In this document: one piece after another, positions 1-4,455 of the stretch
How the letters are laid out: each line of letters opens with the position of its first letter
Numbering within the stretch: position 1 is the stretch's first letter
DNA from: a virus
Strand: one strand, 5' to 3'
Virus record (IMG/VR): IMGVR_UViG_3300025128_000442
Location: 1 to 20,503 of that record
Length of the DNA: 20,503 nucleotides
The notes under the pieces: generated by a model
The model's input: the letters and a program-made list of their open reading frames with translations, nothing else
Databases searched by the model: none
What the model was told of the DNA's origin: nothing
Program-made: the position numbers and the translations under genes

Positions 1-27
1 ATTTGCGACTGTGAGGCTTGCACCCCA

Positions 28-498
28 TTAAGAAGCGTCTGCACTCACATCGTCGAACGTAGCGTTGTCGATGATTTCATCCGTAAAATCGTATGCTGAG
101 TGGTTTTCATTGAATTTTTCGATGGCTTCTTCCTCACTTTTCGCCTGAATCGACGTGTAAAAAGTGCCAGTGTATTCAACCGTGATTTCAAAATCACGTT
201 GGATAGCAATCTTTTCTTCGAGTTCTTCGCCCTCATACGTATTGATTGCTGAACGTAAGCGGAATATGTCATCGAATAACATCACGATTTTGTTCTGCAC
301 GATGCCCAGTTTTTCGTGCAATTCTTCGGGTAGATCCTCTTTGCTCAACAGGTACTTGTTATCGACGAGCGTTTTCACGTACTCATCCTTATCAATCATC
401 CACAACTTTCTTGCAACTTGTCTTGATTGCTCGTAAAGACTGTGTACAGCTTCGACTTCGCTCTCATTCAACTCAACTTCGTTTGATACGTATGACAT
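28..498 (-). CDS. Hypothetical acidic early protein, possible DpnD/PcfM-like C-terminal domain
   Basis: A 156-residue acidic protein (starts MSYVSNEVEL) of unknown function. The N-terminal two thirds is predicted helical and rich in Glu, Asp and Lys. The last ~50 residues (from about FEITVEYTGT, then QAKSEEEAIEKFNENH) have the beta-strand plus 'A.SEEEA' helix pattern of small DpnD/PcfM-like domains; I infer this by eye and am not sure. The upstream in-frame ATG at 630 is rejected because the leader motif shared by all genes of this strand (508-523, CACGAAAGG) sits just before the ATG at 498. A 6-bp hairpin (494-508) covers this start codon. The leader lies directly downstream of a hammerhead ribozyme, so this gene probably has a processed 5' end. 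Confidence 0.75.
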   Translation of the reverse strand: MSYVSNEVELNESEVEAVHSLYEQSRQVARKLWMIDKDEYVKTLVDNKYLLSKEDLPEELHEKLGIVQNKIVMLFDDIFRLRSAINTYEGEELEEKIAIQRDFEITVEYTGTFYTSIQAKSEEEAIEKFNENHSAYDFTDEIIDNATFDDVSADAS

Positions 499-508
499 TT
501 TCAATGTC
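494..508 (-). promoter_or_regulatory. Start-codon hairpin of the 28-498 gene
   Basis: On the minus strand GACAUU pairs with AAUGUC around a GAA loop. The start codon lies in the 3' arm. It belongs to a set of small hairpins at the starts of most genes on this strand. The structure is seen; an effect on translation is inferred. Confidence 0.5.
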
Positions 509-526
509 CTTTCGTGATTGGGTATT

Positions 527-579
527 GGCTGTTTCATGCTTTCGCAATCATCAGGCAGGATACACATCCCGCTACAACC
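527..579 (-). ncRNA. Hammerhead ribozyme, type III
   Basis: Read on the minus strand from 579 to 527. Stem III is GGUUGU with ACAGCC (6 bp, one G-U). The cleavage triplet GUA ends at 573. Stem I is GCGGGAU / AUCCUGC with a GUGU loop. Then come the core CUGAUGA, stem II UGC / GCA with a GAAA loop and a flanking U-U, and the second core strand GAAA. All invariant core positions (C3 U4 G5 A6 G8 A9, G12 A13 A14, A15.1-U16.1, H17) are present. Predicted cleavage is between 573 and 572, leaving a 5'-OH on the RNA that carries the downstream gene (28-498). Stem III is the open stem. Hammerheads are known from phage genomes; activity here is inferred. Confidence 0.88.
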
Positions 580-608
580 CCTCACAGGCCACCTAACGGC
601 CTGTGAGG
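580..608 (-). other. Strong 11-bp hairpin after the 617-919 gene
   Basis: CCTCACAGGCC pairs perfectly with GGCCTGTGAGG around a 7-nt loop. It lies between the stop codon of the 617-919 gene and the hammerhead at 527-579. There is no U tract, so it is unlikely to be an intrinsic terminator. After ribozyme cleavage it would be close to the 3' end of the upstream mRNA, where such a hairpin would block 3'-5' exonucleases (inference). Confidence 0.75.
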
Positions 609-616
609 TGTGTTGG

Positions 617-919
617 CTACTCAGATCCAAAGAATGCTTCTATTGCGTCTATGACGATAGACACGGTTTCATTCTCATTGTCAATCCTGACGGGGAGATA
701 TCCACGTAGTGCATCTTCGATAATGTTACGGTCTACTCCGTAGCCTTCCGACCATAACTCCGTCCAATCGTATAGGTGGGACGCATCCTCACCTCTACGT
801 TCCAATTCTTTGCGGATGTCCATATCCCATACGCTGTTTCGCCACATACCAGTGGCAGACCAGAATTGGTTTGAACCTAGGCAAATCACTTTGCCAGCGA
901 TTGCTGTTTGTGTAGTCAT
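617..919 (-). CDS. Hypothetical early protein, 100 aa
   Basis: Unknown function; I recognise no family. The protein starts MTTQTAIAGK, has a Trp-rich first half (FWSATGMWRNSVWDMDI) and a helical acidic C-terminus ending FFGSE. An in-frame ATG at 952 would add 11 residues, but those codons are the leader motif (929-945, CACGAAAG) found before every gene on this strand, so the ATG at 919 is the better start. It is the first gene after the promoter at 967-995. It is followed by an 11-bp hairpin and a hammerhead, which would separate its mRNA from that of the next gene. Confidence 0.72.
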   Translation of the reverse strand: MTTQTAIAGKVICLGSNQFWSATGMWRNSVWDMDIRKELERRGEDASHLYDWTELWSEGYGVDRNIIEDALRGYLPVRIDNENETVSIVIDAIEAFFGSE

Positions 920-966
920 GAGAAACTCGCTTTCGTGGTTGGGGTTTGTCAACTTCGACGCTAATC

Positions 967-995
967 AATCTATCGGCATCGAATTTGACTGTCAA
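967..995 (-). promoter_or_regulatory. Promoter for the 617-919 and 28-498 genes
   Basis: On the minus strand a perfect -35 TTGACA (995-990) is followed after 17 nt by TAGATT (972-967). The spacer holds GATGCCGATAG, a word also found in the promoter at 2560-2588. A second AATTTGACA-like box lies just upstream (about 1001-1009). Sigma-70 type by sequence; not tested. Confidence 0.6.
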
Positions 996-1038
996 CAACA
1001 AATTTGACATTTTGTTGGGTTACCGTAGGTAAAAAAGT

Positions 1039-1251
1039 TCATTCGGGATAGTAATCTTCAGCACTATCTTCCGGTATGTATTCTTTGATGATGTCACCAT
1101 CCTCAAAGAGCGTCACAGTTTCACCCCCTGCTCTACTAAAGCCTGAGAGTGATACTTGCTTGTATTCATTGAATAATGAGATAGCCTTTTCGCTATTGTT
1201 CCCATTCCATACATTACCGACGTTATCTACGTATAGTTCGTAAAGTGACAT
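1039..1251 (-). CDS. Hypothetical early protein, 70 aa
   Basis: Small protein of unknown function (starts MSLYELYVDN, ends EDSAEDYYPE) with an acidic tail. The ATG at 1251 is preferred to the in-frame TTG at 1254. The leader motif CACGAAAGG (1261-1277) precedes it with normal spacing. The pattern 'VGNVWNGNNSEKAISLFNEYKQVS' suggests a short beta hairpin and a helix. It is the last gene of its unit: T-rich DNA follows the stop and the next promoter begins about 45 bases on. Upstream lie a 10-bp hairpin and the tRNA-like minihelix at 1308-1351. Confidence 0.72.
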   Translation of the reverse strand: MSLYELYVDNVGNVWNGNNSEKAISLFNEYKQVSLSGFSRAGGETVTLFEDGDIIKEYIPEDSAEDYYPE

Positions 1252-1280
1252 CAAATTAAACCTTTCGTGATTAGGGTATA

Positions 1281-1305
1281 CGTGACTCCCCCTATGGGAG
1301 TCACG
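1281..1305 (-). other. 5'-leader hairpin with AUAGG loop, copy 1
   Basis: CGUGACUCCC pairs with GGGAGUCACG (10 bp) around the loop AUAGG. It lies between the minihelix at 1308-1351 and the leader of the 1039-1251 gene. The copy at 1918-1942 has the same loop and length with compensatory base-pair changes. It would become the 5' hairpin of the mature mRNA. The arm CGUGA could instead pair with UCACG in the leader next to the Shine-Dalgarno. Confidence 0.72.
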
Positions 1306-1307
1306 AA

Positions 1308-1351
1308 GTCACCGTTTGGGGCTTGAACCCAAATGCCTGCCTGTCAGTGAC
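1308..1351 (-). ncRNA. tRNA-like minihelix, copy 1 (44 nt)
   Basis: Minus strand, 5' end at 1351. GUCACUG (acceptor-like 5' strand), 11-nt linker ACAGGCAGGCA, then a T arm UUUGGG / CCCAAA with loop UUCAAGC, then CGGUGAC closing the 7-bp stem with one G-U. The loop fits the tRNA T-loop consensus UUCRANY with G53-C61. D and anticodon arms and a CCA end are absent, so it is not a tRNA. Acceptor stem plus T arm is the minimal recognition unit of RNase P and RNase Z, which suggests an RNA-processing site. Two other copies have identical geometry. Confidence 0.75.
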
Positions 1352-1352
1352 A

Positions 1353-1368
1353 CCTGCTATTAAGCAGG
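1353..1368 (-). other. Stop-codon hairpin of the ardA-like gene
   Basis: CCUGCU pairs with AGCAGG around the tetraloop UAAU, which contains the UAA stop of the 1360-1890 gene. It ends one base before the 5' strand of the minihelix at 1308-1351. If the minihelix is cut at its 5' side, this hairpin becomes the 3' end of the mRNA. Confidence 0.65.
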
Positions 1369-1890
1369 AGCGAAGATGTAATCTTCGCCTTCGTACTCGA
1401 CAAATGAGTAGTTGTTTTCATACTCTCTGAGTATTAAATCCTCGTTAAGGTAGGGGATAAAGAAGTCTAAGACTTCTCTTGTTTGACCGGAACATTCCAC
1501 CCAATGGTCTACAGACCAATCTTTACGGTCGGTGGTATATCCCATATAAGAATTCTCGAAATGGGATTCATCCCATCGTCCGAAGTTGCTTACATATGCT
1601 TCAACAGCCTCACGGCTGTATTTCTCATACATCCTGACACGTTCGGCTATGTCGTGCAGGACTCCGGTGCAGTCGAAGCCACCACCCCCATCAATATCTA
1701 GATATTCATGGTCGTGGATTTCCCATTCTTCGGCATACTCTGAAGGGGATGCTTCGAGCATTTGCTCGACTTCGAGGTACATACCTTCGGCATCATCCGT
1801 TGCGTCTATCCATTTGCCGTGGAGTATTCCTTCGGAATATGACGCTAAACAGGCAGCGTAAAAGCGTGGTTGAACTTTTGTAGTTTGCAT
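1360..1890 (-). CDS. ardA: ArdA-like antirestriction protein
   Basis: ArdA proteins mimic B-form DNA and block type I restriction-modification enzymes when phage or plasmid DNA enters the cell. This protein is 176 aa, close to the usual ~165-180, and strongly acidic. Family hallmarks are the N-terminal 'FYAACLASYSEGILHGKWID' (ArdA: LxxYNxGxLhGxWID), then a helix with 'LEASPSEYAEEWEIHDHEYLDI' (ArdA: EEWAIHDYEGF) and acidic helices to the C-terminus (EYENNYSFVEYEGEDYIF). The ATG at 1890 follows the leader CACGGAGG. Its A and U lie in the loop of a perfect 6-bp hairpin (1883-1897). Upstream are the minihelix at 1945-1988 and a 10-bp hairpin; downstream are the stop-codon hairpin and minihelix at 1308-1351. 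Early antirestriction fits the inferred early role of this region. Confidence 0.88.
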   Translation of the reverse strand: MQTTKVQPRFYAACLASYSEGILHGKWIDATDDAEGMYLEVEQMLEASPSEYAEEWEIHDHEYLDIDGGGGFDCTGVLHDIAERVRMYEKYSREAVEAYVSNFGRWDESHFENSYMGYTTDRKDWSVDHWVECSGQTREVLDFFIPYLNEDLILREYENNYSFVEYEGEDYIFAPA

Positions 1891-1897
1891 AGCAAAC
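1883..1897 (-). promoter_or_regulatory. Start-codon hairpin of the ardA-like gene
   Basis: GUUUGC pairs with GCAAAC around the loop UAU. The A and U of the start codon are in the loop and the G is the first paired base. The genes starting at 2501 and 3309 place their start codon in the same way. Confidence 0.6.
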
Positions 1898-1917
1898 CTC
1901 CGTGATTAAGGGTTTAA

Positions 1918-1942
1918 CGTGAACCCCCCTATGGGGTTCACG
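1918..1942 (-). other. 5'-leader hairpin with AUAGG loop, copy 2
   Basis: CGUGAACCCC pairs with GGGGUUCACG (10 bp) around AUAGG. Compared with the copy at 1281-1305 two pairs change in both arms (C-G to A-U, U-A to C-G) while loop and length stay the same, which supports selection on structure. It lies between the minihelix at 1945-1988 and the leader of the ardA-like gene. Confidence 0.75.
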
Positions 1943-1944
1943 AG

Positions 1945-1988
1945 GTCACCGTCTAGGACTTGAACCTAGAAGTAGGCCGTTCGGCGAC
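1945..1988 (-). ncRNA. tRNA-like minihelix, copy 2 (44 nt)
   Basis: Minus strand, 5' end at 1988. GUCGCCG, linker AACGGCCUACU, T arm UCUAGG / CCUAGA with loop UUCAAGU, then CGGUGAC (7-bp stem with one G-U). Same 7-11-19-7 layout as the other two copies. Stem sequences differ but pairing is kept, so this is a structured RNA family and not a simple repeat. It directly follows the stop-codon hairpin of the 1998-2501 gene. Confidence 0.77.
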
Positions 1989-1989
1989 T

Positions 1990-2007
1990 AGAGTTGTTTA
2001 CAACTCT
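1990..2007 (-). other. Stop-codon hairpin of the 1998-2501 gene
   Basis: AGAGUUG pairs with CAACUCU around UAAA, which contains the UAA stop. One base separates it from the minihelix at 1945-1988. Same arrangement as at 1353-1368 and 2653-2670. Confidence 0.68.
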
Positions 2008-2501
2008 GTGTAGCACTCAGAATCGTCGATACGGGCAAGGTATCGTACAACGTCCGAGCCAAGCAAATTTAGGTCGTTAGACCATGTGAAAAATGGTTCA
2101 TTGTCGATTATGTCGATGAATTCGATTACCTTTTCATCTTTGATGAATTGCCTGAAGTCTTGCTTATCTTCGTCTGATAAATCAGACGATGACCAATCAT
2201 CGTTTATGGCAGCACTTGCAAAGCAAGCTGGTAACTTAAATACGTAGTATCCACGTGTTTCGCTCCAAAGTTTCTCCATAGCTTCAGCTTCGCTGTCATA
2301 CGGAATCCACTCCGTACAATCGAGGTAGCCATCGGCGGACAATCTACCGATTGTGCCGGTTTCCTTTTCTACGGATACGTAGACTCCTTCATCCTTTAGG
2401 ATTGAACCAGCATGTTCTATGGCATCAGCCACAGATGGGAAGTAGTCGATACCATTAACTACGTAGTAGTCGCCGGTGACAAATTGAGGTGTCATATGCA
2501 T
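1998..2501 (-). CDS. Hypothetical early protein, 167 aa
   Basis: Unknown function. The acidic protein starts MHMTPQFVTG. Residues ~20-60 look like a beta/helix repeat (YFPSVADAIEHAGSILKDEG), residues ~105-125 are an acidic helix (DLSDEDKQDFRQFIKDEKV), and the end carries 'PFFTWSNDLNLLGSDVVRY', a Trp-containing motif resembling ones in small plasmid and phage proteins whose function I cannot name. The ATG at 2501 is chosen over 2495 by spacing to the Shine-Dalgarno (CACGGAG, 8 nt). The protein is about the size of the ardA-like product and similarly acidic, so a DNA-mimic role is possible, but nothing in the sequence proves it. First gene after the promoter at 2560-2588. Confidence 0.75.
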   Translation of the reverse strand: MHMTPQFVTGDYYVVNGIDYFPSVADAIEHAGSILKDEGVYVSVEKETGTIGRLSADGYLDCTEWIPYDSEAEAMEKLWSETRGYYVFKLPACFASAAINDDWSSSDLSDEDKQDFRQFIKDEKVIEFIDIIDNEPFFTWSNDLNLLGSDVVRYLARIDDSECYTEL

Positions 2502-2507
2502 AGCATA
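2495..2507 (-). promoter_or_regulatory. Start-codon hairpin of the 1998-2501 gene
   Basis: UAUGC pairs with GCAUA (5 bp) around the loop UAU. The A and U of the start codon are in the loop and its G closes the stem, as in the ardA-like gene. Confidence 0.45.
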
Positions 2508-2533
2508 AACTCCGTGATTAAGGTTTGGGGTTT

Positions 2534-2550
2534 GGCAGCAATTTGCCGCC
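2534..2550 (-). other. Hairpin near the predicted transcript 5' end
   Basis: GGCGGC pairs with GCUGCC (one G-U) around AAAUU. It lies just downstream of the predicted start of transcription from the promoter at 2560-2588, so it would be a 5'-terminal hairpin. A stability role is inferred. Confidence 0.45.
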
Positions 2551-2559
2551 GAGAATTAC

Positions 2560-2588
2560 AAAGTAACATAACTATCGGCATTTGTCAA
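2560..2588 (-). promoter_or_regulatory. Promoter for the 1998-2501 / ardA-like unit
   Basis: Minus strand: perfect -35 TTGACA (2588-2583), 17-nt spacer containing AATGCCGATAG, -10 TACTTT (2565-2560). Another TGTCAA-type box lies about 15 bases upstream. It shares the TTTGACA environment and the word ATGCCGATAG with the promoter at 967-995. Confidence 0.55.
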
Positions 2589-2608
2589 ACACAAACTTGA
2601 CAGTTAAT

Positions 2609-2652
2609 TTCCCCTTTGGGGAGTTGAACCCCAACGTAGGCCAACAGGGGAA
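2609..2652 (-). ncRNA. tRNA-like minihelix, copy 3 (44 nt)
   Basis: Minus strand, 5' end at 2652. UUCCCCU, linker GUUGGCCUACG, T arm UUGGGG / CCCCAA with loop UUCAACU, then AGGGGAA: a 7-bp stem with only Watson-Crick pairs, extendable by one U-A. Layout is identical to the other copies. The linker shares GGCCUAC with the copy at 1945-1988. Here the element marks the end of a unit, with the next promoter 20 bases on, so it may define an mRNA 3' end. Confidence 0.75.
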
Positions 2653-2670
2653 AGACATACTAGTATGTCT
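2653..2670 (-). other. Stop-codon palindrome of the 2660-2950 gene
   Basis: AGACATACTAGTATGTCT is an 18-base perfect palindrome. As RNA it folds to a 7-bp hairpin whose CUAG loop contains the UAG stop. It abuts the minihelix at 2609-2652. Confidence 0.7.
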
Positions 2671-2950
2671 CAGGTGGCACAAAGTCGATTATGCCTAATG
2701 TGCGACCATCGTATGAGTAGACTGCCTGAAGGCAATTGTCATTGCCTACGTGGGATTCGCCTATGATGTAGGCAAGTTTGTTTATGGGTACGAAGTGGTC
2801 GCTAACTCCGGCTCCCTCAAGAAGTAGCGAAGCTACTTCGTAAGCATTTTCGTTTTTGACTTTGGTATGGCGTTTTACGTCGATTTCCTTCGGAATTCCA
2901 TCGTGCATATCGCCTATACATGAGCCTATTTCGATTTCGTAATCAAACAT
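2660..2950 (-). CDS. Hypothetical early protein, 96 aa
   Basis: Unknown function. It starts MFDYEIEIGS and appears to alternate short beta strands (YEIEIGSCIGD, QAVYSYDGRTLGIIDF) with one central helix (ENAYEVASLLLEG), as in small single-domain alpha/beta proteins. I see no metal-binding or catalytic motif. The ATG at 2950 has GGAG 8 nt upstream; the GGA sits in the loop of a hairpin (2954-2968). Only 26 bases separate it from the preceding gene at 2977-3309, and this is the one junction of the upper unit with no ribozyme, minihelix or long hairpin, so the two genes may stay on one mRNA. Confidence 0.72.
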   Translation of the reverse strand: MFDYEIEIGSCIGDMHDGIPKEIDVKRHTKVKNENAYEVASLLLEGAGVSDHFVPINKLAYIIGESHVGNDNCLQAVYSYDGRTLGIIDFVPPETY

Positions 2951-2953
2951 GTC

Positions 2954-2968
2954 ATTTACTCCGTAAAT
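2954..2968 (-). promoter_or_regulatory. Shine-Dalgarno-in-loop hairpin, 2660-2950 gene
   Basis: AUUUAC pairs with GUAAAU around the triloop GGA, which is the Shine-Dalgarno core. The hairpins at 3735-3751 and 4195-4209 have the same design with changed stems. Confidence 0.6.
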
Positions 2969-2976
2969 GGGGTTAA

Positions 2977-3309
2977 TTAAACTCTGTCCAAACTAGTTTG
3001 GACGTATTCCGCTTCCATCGCTACAATACGGCTGAATTCTTTTAGTGCTTTGTCTAGATTACCCATAGGGTGGTATTGACCATTGCCAAAAAAACTGTGT
3101 TTAATTTCGTTATTTTCGGTGTATGCAGCTTCGCTGACAACCTCATTACACACTACGAGCATGTCCTGACTTTTATCAATCCTGACTACAACCCTATAGG
3201 GTTGGTTCCACATTCGTTTTATAATCGGCGAAGCCGCAATAATGGGCGAGTAGTCGATTTTGCCATTGTCTACTACGTAGACAGTCTTTTTGAATTCGTC
3301 GTATTTCAT
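2977..3309 (-). CDS. Hypothetical early protein, 110 aa
   Basis: Unknown function. It starts MKYDEFKKTV; residues ~8-50 are beta-rich (VYVVDNGKID, YRVVVRIDKS, MLVVCNEVV) and the C-terminus is a helix (LDKALKEFSRIVAMEAEYVQ). The longer reading frame back to 3444 is rejected because that extension is the hammerhead at 3346-3404 and the end of the previous gene. The ATG at 3309 follows CACGGAGG (3318-3334), and its A and U lie in the loop of a 7-bp hairpin. After ribozyme cleavage the mRNA would start at 3380 with the ribozyme's stem-I hairpin. Confidence 0.74.
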   Translation of the reverse strand: MKYDEFKKTVYVVDNGKIDYSPIIAASPIIKRMWNQPYRVVVRIDKSQDMLVVCNEVVSEAAYTENNEIKHSFFGNGQYHPMGNLDKALKEFSRIVAMEAEYVQTSLDRV

Positions 3310-3319
3310 TCTGAAATAC
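3301..3319 (-). promoter_or_regulatory. Start-codon hairpin of the 2977-3309 gene
   Basis: GUAUUUC pairs with GAAAUAC (7 bp) around AGAAU. The A and U of the start codon end the loop and its G is the first paired base. Confidence 0.55.
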
Positions 3320-3345
3320 CTCCGTGAATGGGTTACGTGGAATCT

Positions 3346-3404
3346 GCCATCATCAGACGTAGGCCGATTAACGCCTACATGACACCCCATAGGGGTGTTT
3401 CGGC
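3346..3404 (-). ncRNA. Hammerhead ribozyme, type II, copy A
   Basis: Minus strand from 3404 to 3346: stem II strand GCC, core GAAA, stem III ACACCCC / GGGGUGU with loop UAU, cleavage triplet GUC (C at 3381), stem I AUGUAGGC / GCCUACGU with 8-nt loop GUUAAUCG, core CUGAUGA, then U and GGC pairing with GCC. Stem II is the open stem, only 3 bp with one extra U after A9; this is the weak point for activity. Predicted cleavage is between 3381 and 3380. The element starts at the base right after the UAA stop of the 3405-3731 gene, so the ribozyme's stem III becomes that mRNA's 3' hairpin. Confidence 0.87.
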
Positions 3405-3731
3405 TTAGGAATGGGTATGTCCATCGGGTTCGATACCGAGCCACATGGTGTTACCGGCTTCGCCGGTTACCTCGACCATCCAACACCCAAAACCACTTTG
3501 TGGTTGTCCTACCTTCGCCCATCGTTCTCCTAGTCTGCCATAGGCAGCAATTTGTTCAGGGGTTCCGGTGAATCGCCACATGTCGGATTCTGCACTATCC
3601 CTATCGGGATAAGTCCAAGAACTCAGCTTTTCGTATGGCCCACATTCGGGACATAATGTCCCGATATAGTATCCTGCTGCTGATTTTAGAACCTTCGGTT
3701 CTAGTACGGTTCCACATTCTTCACATGCCAT
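3405..3731 (-). CDS. Zinc-ribbon early protein, 108 aa
   Basis: Protein of unknown function with an N-terminal zinc ribbon: CEEC at residues 3-6 and CPEC at 27-30 form a four-cysteine site. Residues ~36-75 are helical with Trp and Arg (WRFTGTPEQIAAYGRLGERW); the C-terminus is beta-like (GCWMVEVTGEAGNTMWLGIEPDG). Small zinc ribbons often bind nucleic acid or host RNA polymerase, but the target is not visible here. The ATG at 3731 follows ACGGAG, whose GGA is in the loop of a 7-bp hairpin (3735-3751). It is flanked by hammerheads on both sides (3767-3825 upstream, 3346-3404 downstream), so its mRNA would be released as a single-gene RNA of about 420 nt. Confidence 0.8.
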   Translation of the reverse strand: MACEECGTVLEPKVLKSAAGYYIGTLCPECGPYEKLSSWTYPDRDSAESDMWRFTGTPEQIAAYGRLGERWAKVGQPQSGFGCWMVEVTGEAGNTMWLGIEPDGHTHS

Positions 3732-3734
3732 GAT

Positions 3735-3751
3735 ATTTAACTCCGTTAAAT
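3735..3751 (-). promoter_or_regulatory. Shine-Dalgarno-in-loop hairpin, 3405-3731 gene
   Basis: AUUUAAC pairs with GUUAAAU (7 bp) around the triloop GGA. This is one pair longer than at 2954-2968, with the same loop and position. Confidence 0.62.
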
Positions 3752-3766
3752 GGGGTCGAGGTATCT

Positions 3767-3825
3767 GCCATCGTCAGGCACGGAGCGATAAGCCTCCGCA
3801 CGACTCCCCTTCGGGGAGTTTCGGC
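3767..3825 (-). ncRNA. Hammerhead ribozyme, type II, copy B
   Basis: Minus strand from 3825 to 3767: GCC, core GAAA, stem III ACUCCCC / GGGGAGU with loop GAA, triplet GUC (C at 3802), stem I GUGCGGAG / CUCCGUGC (two wobble pairs) with 8-nt loop GCUUAUCG, core CUGACGA (C at variable position 7), then U and GGC closing on GCC. It has the same 59-nt length and layout as copy A. Stems I and III differ in sequence but stay paired, which is strong covariation. Predicted cleavage is between 3802 and 3801. It starts one base after the UAA stop of the 3827-4189 gene. Confidence 0.88.
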
Positions 3826-3826
3826 T

Positions 3827-4189
3827 TTATGCGTTGACTACTACGTAGTTGGGGACAGCCCCCGAACTATCGCCACACCTATCTGCATGTTTGATAGCAT
3901 CTTCGATGCTCTCAAAGATGTAATCCTCGTTGTACCAACCCCATCTATCGCCGCAACACCTACAATCCTTGCCTTCGGCAACACCGTTCAGATAGAGACC
4001 TACGGTCTCAGCGGCTTTGGTGGCGGTATCAATCACCGATTCAATAGCATCTTCGATGCTTTCGTCGGTGTACCAATCGTCATCGCCCATCTCGAGCCTA
4101 TCGTCCCCAAAGGGGACGTTCACGATGATATATTTGGCGGGATAGGTATAGTATCCGCCTGAATTGCCTTGGCTGAACATGATAATCAT
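3827..4189 (-). CDS. Cysteine-rich acidic early protein, 120 aa
   Basis: Unknown function. It starts MIIMFSQGNS and has an N-terminal Gly/Tyr-rich segment, then two similar helices (DESIEDAIESV at ~43-53 and FESIEDAIKHA at ~92-102) flanking a cysteine cluster CRCCGDRWGWY (~76-86). With the later Cys of ADRCGD this could bind a metal. The repeated ESIEDAI helix suggests an internal duplication. The ATG at 4189 has GGAG upstream in a hairpin loop; an internal ATG at 4180 would remove three residues. A 10-bp hairpin lies upstream (4223-4248) and the type II hammerhead copy B starts one base after its stop codon. Confidence 0.74.
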   Translation of the reverse strand: MIIMFSQGNSGGYYTYPAKYIIVNVPFGDDRLEMGDDDWYTDESIEDAIESVIDTATKAAETVGLYLNGVAEGKDCRCCGDRWGWYNEDYIFESIEDAIKHADRCGDSSGAVPNYVVVNA

Positions 4190-4194
4190 GGCGC

Positions 4195-4209
4195 ATTTAC
4201 TCCATAAAT
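4195..4209 (-). promoter_or_regulatory. Shine-Dalgarno-in-loop hairpin, 3827-4189 gene
   Basis: AUUUAU pairs with GUAAAU (outer five Watson-Crick, inner U-G) around the triloop GGA. Third member of the set with 2954-2968 and 3735-3751. Confidence 0.52.
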
Positions 4210-4220
4210 TGGGGTGTAAA

Positions 4221-4256
4221 ATCCCTACGGGGAGACTACCCCGTAGGGGTAGGGAT
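4221..4256 (-). other. Two-state hairpin between the first two early genes
   Basis: A perfect 10-bp hairpin (CCCTACGGGG 4223-4232 with CCCCGTAGGG 4239-4248) is followed on the minus strand by AUUUUA. The tandem CCCUAC also allows an outer 8-bp stem (4221-4228 with 4249-4256). It may be a weak or partial intrinsic terminator, or a processing site that takes the place of the ribozymes at this junction. I see no hammerhead core here. Confidence 0.6.
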
Positions 4257-4258
4257 CT

Positions 4259-4357
4259 CTAGCCCTGATAATAAGTCGCTTCGATATCTTCGATATCTAG
4301 GTCAAAGTCTACGAGTTCATATTCCAAGTATTCAATGTCATTTTCGATGTAGGTCAT
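4259..4357 (-). CDS. Small acidic leader-proximal protein, 32 aa
   Basis: Very acidic peptide starting MTYIENDIEY and ending IEATYYQG, with 11 Asp/Glu and almost no basic residues. Function unknown. The ATG at 4357 is chosen because the strand-wide leader motif (4369-4385, CACGAAG) precedes it; the longer frame back to 4462 would run through that leader and the promoter. It is the first gene downstream of the promoter at 4428-4455. A 32-aa product could be a real micro-protein or a translated leader. The consistent leader and the strong codon-level acidity favour a real gene. Confidence 0.6.
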   Translation of the reverse strand: MTYIENDIEYLEYELVDFDLDIEDIEATYYQG

Positions 4358-4427: not shown

Positions 4428-4455
4428 ATCTTAGCAGGATTATCGTCCTTGTCAA
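4428..4455 (-). promoter_or_regulatory. Promoter for the upper minus-strand unit
   Basis: Minus strand: perfect -35 TTGACA (4455-4450), 16-nt spacer, -10 TAAGAT (4433-4428). It would start transcription near 4421 and drive the genes from 4357 down to about 2660. Another TTTGACA box at 4544-4550 on the same strand lacks a good -10 and may be an operator or second promoter. Confidence 0.55.

Follow-up and report, generated by a model that had tools for sequence, protein, structure and literature searches.

Hammerhead ribozymes and 44-nucleotide (nt) minihelices that resemble part of a transfer RNA (tRNA) lie between the genes of an early viral operon, where they are probably interchangeable signals for processing a polycistronic RNA into single, end-protected messenger RNAs (mRNAs); we put a rough probability of 0.7 on this reading. 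The operon occupies the first 4.4 kb of the minus strand (4357-28) of IMG/VR record IMGVR_UViG_3300025128_000442, a linear virus contig of 20,503 base pairs (bp) that is here called the window; the virus is a virus of bacteria. Ten small open reading frames (ORFs; genes A-J) are separated by nine junctions, of which two contain type II hammerheads, one a probable type III hammerhead and three a minihelix; the other three hold a hairpin that can switch between two folds, only a leader, and a promoter-like site (Table 1). This layout had been described in an earlier note on the sequence, and Rfam matches, descriptors and folds confirm it at all nine junctions. No hammerhead-like and no minihelix-like element arose in 300 shuffles of the region, against three of each in the real sequence.

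According to the mechanism proposed here, a long transcript of the early operon would be cleaved at most of its junctions by one or the other cis element. Hammerheads of type II or III would cleave themselves, and the minihelix, which mimics the tRNA elbow together with the acceptor/T-arm half, would be cut at its 5' end by host RNase P. The upstream mRNA would end in a hairpin that contains or adjoins the stop codon. The 5' end of the downstream mRNA would be paired as well, within stem I after hammerhead cleavage (leaving a 5'-OH) or within the minihelix itself (leaving a 5'-monophosphate), so that the outcome would be mRNAs of one or a few genes with both ends protected. An RNA-processing system with two kinds of element had been suggested in the earlier note; sequence comparison shows that its elements are present, structured, covarying, exchangeable and regular in position and orientation, and their cleavage, the part of RNase P and the protection of ends by hairpins are what we infer.

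Hammerheads in the window and in a sister phage

Type II hammerheads were recognized by a CUGANGA / GAAA core, closed stems I and III, a UH cleavage site and a score above the cut-off of Rfam RF02276 (37 bits). Both type II hammerheads of the window have the features of this family; the one at junction C/D scores above the cut-off and the one at B/C just below it, its core and stems being complete despite the lower score. Core and stems are also complete in the candidate type III hammerhead at junction I/J, which was detected by a custom descriptor only; Rfam RF00008 has no match in the window.

The terminase of the window is 99% shared with that of a sister phage, L046 (IMGVR_UViG_3300025141_006528), the early operon of which looks different in gene content. 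A search for the same elements in related phages had been recommended, and L046 does contain three type II hammerheads, two type III hammerheads and two minihelices at other genes, together with leader-only and promoter-like junctions. The presence of the same kinds of element at different genes argues that they are part of the junction design and do not belong to particular genes. Both type III copies of L046 match RF00008 under its cut-off (E=1.3e-8 and 1.8e-5). When a 77-aa protein (aa, amino acids) encoded beside the operon was used as a probe, only the sister phage was retrieved. The early region of L046 also appears, judged by eye, to encode a serine recombinase and a DNA methylase (1763-2650 and 283-1227), which were not seen in the window.

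Exchange of hammerheads and minihelices

Mixed use of the two elements extends to unrelated phages. Among contigs selected for minihelices, type II hammerheads also occur at junctions in L174 (four), L127 (two), L148, L153, L178 and L202. Conversely, five of 115 viral contigs selected for hammerheads contain minihelices, compared with none in shuffles. Two or more type II matches, a few of them overlapping, are found in 28 of these 115 (L244-L358), mostly without minihelices. In 31 contigs drawn from another pattern, hammerheads were found in the sister phage only. Three of the L174 ribozymes use the stop codon UGA itself as their first strand (UGACGAAAC).

In several homologous gene families, a member that has a hammerhead at its border in one phage has a minihelix there in another (the L174/L132 group, L307/Oaker, L348/L192 and L312/L119), the homologues being 27-39% identical. 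Because of the sister phage, the mixed use in unrelated phages and this exchange at homologous genes, the existence of two exchangeable kinds of putative processing element is strongly supported.

Structure of the minihelix and its likeness to RNase P substrates

All three minihelices of the window have segments of exactly 7/11/6/7/6/7 nt. The stop codon of the upstream gene is placed in the loop of a hairpin at each of these junctions, and this hairpin ends 0-1 nt upstream of the minihelix, in agreement with the earlier note, which had placed the minihelices next to stop-codon hairpins. Hairpins on both sides of the predicted cuts had also been claimed. At junctions F/G and G/H a long hairpin begins no more than 2-3 nt past the minihelix; E/F is an exception, with promoter-like DNA 3' of the minihelix in place of a hairpin.

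Pairing is preserved throughout the family. In 45 diverse copies 98.8% of cells are paired, as against 65.9% in shuffled and 28-47% in slid controls, and there are 200 double changes compared with 58 in shuffles; the scan itself required both stems, and the T-loop and the stack are present in all copies by construction. A 2-bp pseudoknot between bulge positions 9-10 and T-loop positions 7-6, which the scan did not require, is paired in 95.6% with 18 double changes. Over 187 unique copies the combination of bulge 9 with T-loop 7 is A-T in 111, G-C in 61, C-G in 6, T-A in 3, G-T in 5 and another in 1. A conserved GG lies opposite TTC and could dock on the T-loop in the manner of a tRNA; with these features the minihelix looks like a tRNA elbow without the anticodon arm. 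The bulge measures 11 nt in 255 of the matches that have a 6-bp T stem.

RNase P binds the stack of T-stem-loop and acceptor stem, clamps the elbow, reads N-1 and G+1:C72 and base-pairs with RCC; its cut falls just 5' of G+1. Isolated acceptor/T-arm hairpins are cleaved by the enzyme too (PMC11143913, PMC4919913). The minihelices have the shape of such a substrate, a stacked acceptor/T-arm of about 12 bp with a T-loop; the stack is 13 bp in the window. Moreover, pairing starts with G (+1) in 186 of the 197 helices of five bp, R-C (R73-C74) comes after the helix in 212 of 225 copies, and N-1 rarely pairs with N73. The pseudoknot, R-C, G+1 and the rarely paired N-1 constitute independent evidence, because none of them was demanded by the scan.

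The minihelix might instead be an unknown self-cleaving ribozyme or a substrate of another host enzyme, with RNase Z acting 3' of it or RNase E/J or RNase III acting on its stems. RNase Z also reads the T-arm and acceptor, the bulge is well conserved, and a third class of element beside the hammerheads would fit. Nevertheless, conservation of R73-C74 together with G+1 is a signature of RNase P; the surroundings of the predicted cleavage site are variable, unlike a self-cleaving core, and once the bias of the collecting pattern is discounted, near-invariance is limited to the GG, T-loop and pseudoknot. We regard these alternatives as unlikely.

Rfam 15 gave no covariance-model match to the minihelices of the window and of six array-bearing loci, even at permissive E-values, and ARAGORN detected no tRNA gene in the window or in most loci tested. 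Since the elements also lack an anticodon arm, they were rejected as plain tRNA genes and are termed tRNA-like only. A known Rfam element was rejected too, Rfam matching only the hammerheads. That phages carry tRNA genes and that the T-arm is typical of tRNA could suggest decayed tRNA genes or mobile remnants with no function in the transcript; in view of the ARAGORN results, the fixed length, the compensated pairs and the intergenic placement in the sense orientation, such an origin is very improbable.

Spread of the minihelix family

A query built from the bulge and T-arm pattern matched at least 120 IMG/VR stretches, many of them with 3-8 minihelix copies at gene spacing. A general scan of all collected loci gave 280 matches, compared with 2 in two shuffles, and de-duplication left 225 distinct minihelices on 103 contigs of 35-73% GC. 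In annotated phages a consensus query matched 773 places in 141 records (113 of Streptomyces, 24 of Mycobacterium and 4 of Gordonia phages), and no annotated feature underlies a minihelix among the matches listed. A stricter pattern found only 18 stretches in 257 Gb of bacterial genomes (Actinobacteria, Bacteroidetes, Gemmatimonadota and others), and plasmids gave no match to either minihelix consensus.

The position and orientation of the elements are nearly constant. Of 50 matches in phages Joe, Oaker, Lika and Papyrus and in part of Cafasso, all but two were scored as intergenic (48), a count in which nine minus-strand matches of Cafasso were scored without gene coordinates and a few matches were counted twice with different stem lengths; the regions of Joe, Oaker, Lika and Papyrus are about 87% coding, yet their matches are mostly intergenic. 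In these five annotated phages the minihelix mostly starts 6-15 nt past the stop codon and has the same orientation as the genes beside it. Flanking hairpins, mostly 0-3 nt away, are enriched relative to shuffles both upstream (p=2e-10) and downstream (p=1e-20), and the 3' flank is mostly AC[TG].

Structured RNA right after a stop codon could block 3' exonucleases, and the enrichment of flanking hairpins would suit elements that remain uncut and act as tRNA-mimic stabilizers or as sites for host or phage proteins (in antitermination, translation coupling or an exonuclease block). A plain hairpin would suffice for this purpose, yet an elaborate tRNA elbow and the features of a cleavage site are kept, with extra hairpins on both sides; exchange with hammerheads at homologous genes also speaks against it, and one copy per junction is ill-suited to antitermination, which uses few sites. 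Such uncut elements are therefore quite unlikely, and processing at the junctions is the reading that we prefer.

In a second class of minihelix, found in Cafasso, Oaker and Papyrus, the bulge is D-loop-like (ATGGTCGAAG, AACGGTTCACCG) and the stack has 12 bp (6+6), again followed by R-C. Members of this class occur at further junctions of Gordonia and Mycobacterium phages (L242, L240, L243). A variant with a 16-nt bulge (AATGGGCGTAGATGCA) was observed at L048:6444-6396, in a terminase relative of the window, and at L079:5465-5513, in another viral contig. In the bacterial metagenome-assembled genome ADurb.Bin236 (L365:4126-4358, minus strand) three minihelices lie in a 116-nt tandem repeat and are not gene-spaced, and in Actinocatenispora rupis (L377:6651-7948) the bulge/T-arm occurs four times, with a spacing of about 70 nt among three of the copies. 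The pattern GGTTCRANYCCNNNNCGGTGAC was discarded; most of its 31 matches resembled a T-arm by chance and had no 5' partner, and it did yield L079 and L084. Phage phiC31 was examined because its early region is described as having terminators without U tails; no minihelix was found in it by the descriptor, and the model match is weak and at chance level (E=1.2).

Observations that weigh against the processing model

Several observations count against the model of interchangeable processing signals. In the RNase P recognition features, the third position of RCC (C75) is C in only 15 of 225 copies, CCA lies nearby in only 4 of 225, and the stack is mostly 11 bp (5+6), one below the 12 bp measured by RNase P. 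Conservation of the bulge is biased, since many minihelices were collected with a pattern that fixes part of it. Among the terminase relatives of the window (n=38, mostly fragments), the longer members of the clade carry only one or two elements, with a single one in each of G011, G023 and G037. Finally, the I/J hammerhead has U.U at 10.1-11.1, the base of stem II, where the usual G-C pair is absent. The sister copy at L046:5965-5915 keeps this U.U, whereas its pairs in stems I and II differ in a compensating way; as it also matches RF00008, if weakly (E=1.8e-5), it is unlikely that the I/J hammerhead is an accident of sequence.

Relation to known systems and significance

In prophages a single gene is often bordered by several hammerheads, and a triple array surrounds ardA in A. 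tumefaciens; prophage hammerheads cleave in vitro and in E. coli, and it was proposed in 2011 that they process long transcripts of the phage into mRNAs for single genes (Perreault et al., 2011; PMC3088659). As in those arrays, hammerheads flank single genes of a phage operon in the window, and ardA is among the genes concerned. In contrast to them, the window operon mixes ribozymes with minihelices, and its ardA (gene G) is bordered on both sides by minihelices and not by hammerheads.

Like the RNase P model substrate AT1 (PMC11143913), the minihelix has an acceptor stem stacked on a T stem with T-loop, R73-C74 and G at +1. Unlike AT1, it is natural, conserved and cis-acting between genes, has an 11-nt bulge with an elbow pseudoknot and a stack of 11-13 bp, and usually lacks CCA. 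Non-tRNA phage RNAs cut by host RNase P include M3 RNA, the C4 antisense RNA of P1/P7 and T4 gene 32 mRNA (PMC11143913). They are phage substrates of the enzyme proposed here for the minihelix; each is a single RNA, whereas the minihelix is a repeated junction element.

In mitochondrial transcripts, intergenic tRNA structures direct RNase P cuts that free the mRNAs. This punctuation uses working tRNA genes of an organelle, whereas the elements described here are 44-nt mimics without an anticodon arm in bacterial phages. A search of CC-licensed PMC articles, preprints not included, brought up no description of the minihelix family, of its mixture with hammerheads or of the exchange between the two; one may exist elsewhere. 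The principle of RNA punctuation is thus already known, and the minihelix and its mixture with ribozymes are new as far as found. The novelty claimed for the arrangement stands for the mixture; for hammerhead arrays that make single-gene mRNAs it is anticipated by the 2011 proposal. The earlier note described the minihelix; it missed the large family, the covarying elbow pseudoknot and the RNase P-like signature at the cleavage site and named no enzyme.

On balance we lean towards a broader view, in which mini-tRNAs of about 44 nt would be a general RNase P punctuation in phages of Actinobacteria, Bacteroidetes and other hosts, cutting operons gene by gene into end-protected mRNAs and interchangeable with hammerheads, such that the junction function would have evolved twice from unrelated catalytic principles. 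If this is true, tiny RNA signals that either cut themselves or borrow host RNase P would let phages cleave and protect the mRNA of each gene separately. A large structured-RNA family would be added to phage genomes, unmarked in the annotations of many laboratories. The idea can be tested in cultured phages such as Streptomyces phage Joe and the Mycobacterium phages Oaker and Papyrus, and it would supply natural minimal substrates of RNase P and small insulators for operons with individually expressed genes.

Other features of the window

On the plus strand the window encodes a terminase (PHROG match), a protein with a weak major-head match and further genes without family matches. Firm family matches among genes A-J are confined to G (ArdA) and B (DUF7296). 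Promoter-like matches are not enriched in the region (10, against 8.7 in shuffles). No U-tailed terminator occurs at any junction on the minus (coding) strand, and intrinsic terminators were rejected as junction elements, the junctions being without U tracts.

Table 1. Features of the early operon, with elements of the sister phage L046. Covariance model (CM) R1 was trained with all three window minihelices included.
Feature	Position	Strand	Basis
Promoter-like TTGACA-16-TAAGAT ahead of gene A	4428..4455	-	consensus scan, 10/12 matches
Gene A, 32 aa	4259..4357	-	ORF
Junction A/B, two mutually exclusive hairpins, CTACCCC-TAC-GGGGTAG or CCCTACGGGG...CCCCGTAGGG, then TTTT	4221..4256	-	sequence + fold
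Gene B, 120 aa, DUF7296 domain	3827..4189	-	Pfam PF23969 E=2.3e-9
Junction B/C, type II hammerhead, predicted cut 3802/3801 (GTC^G)	3759..3826	-	Rfam RF02276 36.5 bits; descriptor
Gene C, 108 aa, N-terminal Cys pairs	3405..3731	-	ORF; weak zinc-ribbon matches
Junction C/D, type II hammerhead, predicted cut 3381/3380 (GTC^A)	3338..3405	-	Rfam RF02276 44 bits
Gene D, 110 aa	2977..3309	-	ORF
Junction D/E, leader with ribosome-binding site only	2951..2976	-	sequence
Gene E, 96 aa	2660..2950	-	ORF
Stop-codon hairpin, gene E: AGACATAC-TAGT-ATGTCT	2653..2670	-	sequence + fold
Junction E/F, 44-nt tRNA-like minihelix	2609..2652	-	descriptor; CM R1 41.7 bits
Gene F, 167 aa	1998..2501	-	ORF
Stop-codon hairpin, gene F: AGAGTTG-TAAA-CAACTCT	1990..2007	-	sequence + fold
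Junction F/G, 44-nt tRNA-like minihelix, predicted RNase P cut at 5' end	1945..1988	-	descriptor; CM R1 47.3 bits
Hairpin just 3' of F/G minihelix	1918..1942	-	fold; stem changes compensated in G/H copy and both L046 copies
Gene G, 176 aa, ArdA-type antirestriction protein	1360..1890	-	Pfam PF07275 E=7e-15
Stop-codon hairpin, gene G: CCTGCT-TAAT-AGCAGG	1353..1368	-	sequence + fold
Junction G/H, 44-nt tRNA-like minihelix	1308..1351	-	descriptor; CM R1 51.3 bits
Hairpin just 3' of G/H minihelix	1281..1305	-	fold
Gene H, 70 aa	1039..1251	-	ORF, ATG at 1251
Junction H/I, promoter-like TTGACA-17-TAGATT	967..995	-	consensus scan, 10/12 matches
Gene I, 100 aa	617..919	-	ORF, ATG at 919
Hairpin CCTCACAGGCC...GGCCTGTGAGG just upstream of type III hammerhead	580..608	-	fold
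Junction I/J, type III hammerhead, predicted cut 573/572 (GTA^G)	527..579	-	descriptor; covarying sister copy L046:5965-5915
Gene J, 156 aa	28..498	-	ORF, ATG at 498
L046 type II hammerheads	6829-6765, 6363-6297, 3902-3833		
L046 type III hammerheads	5965-5915, 2873-2825		
L046 minihelices	5001-4958, 4560-4517		

GTGAG and CTCAC stand on either side of the stop codon of gene J, and 10 nt further on the contig comes to its end in AGTCGCAAAT (window 1-30, minus strand); another junction element may have been cut off by the contig end beyond gene J.

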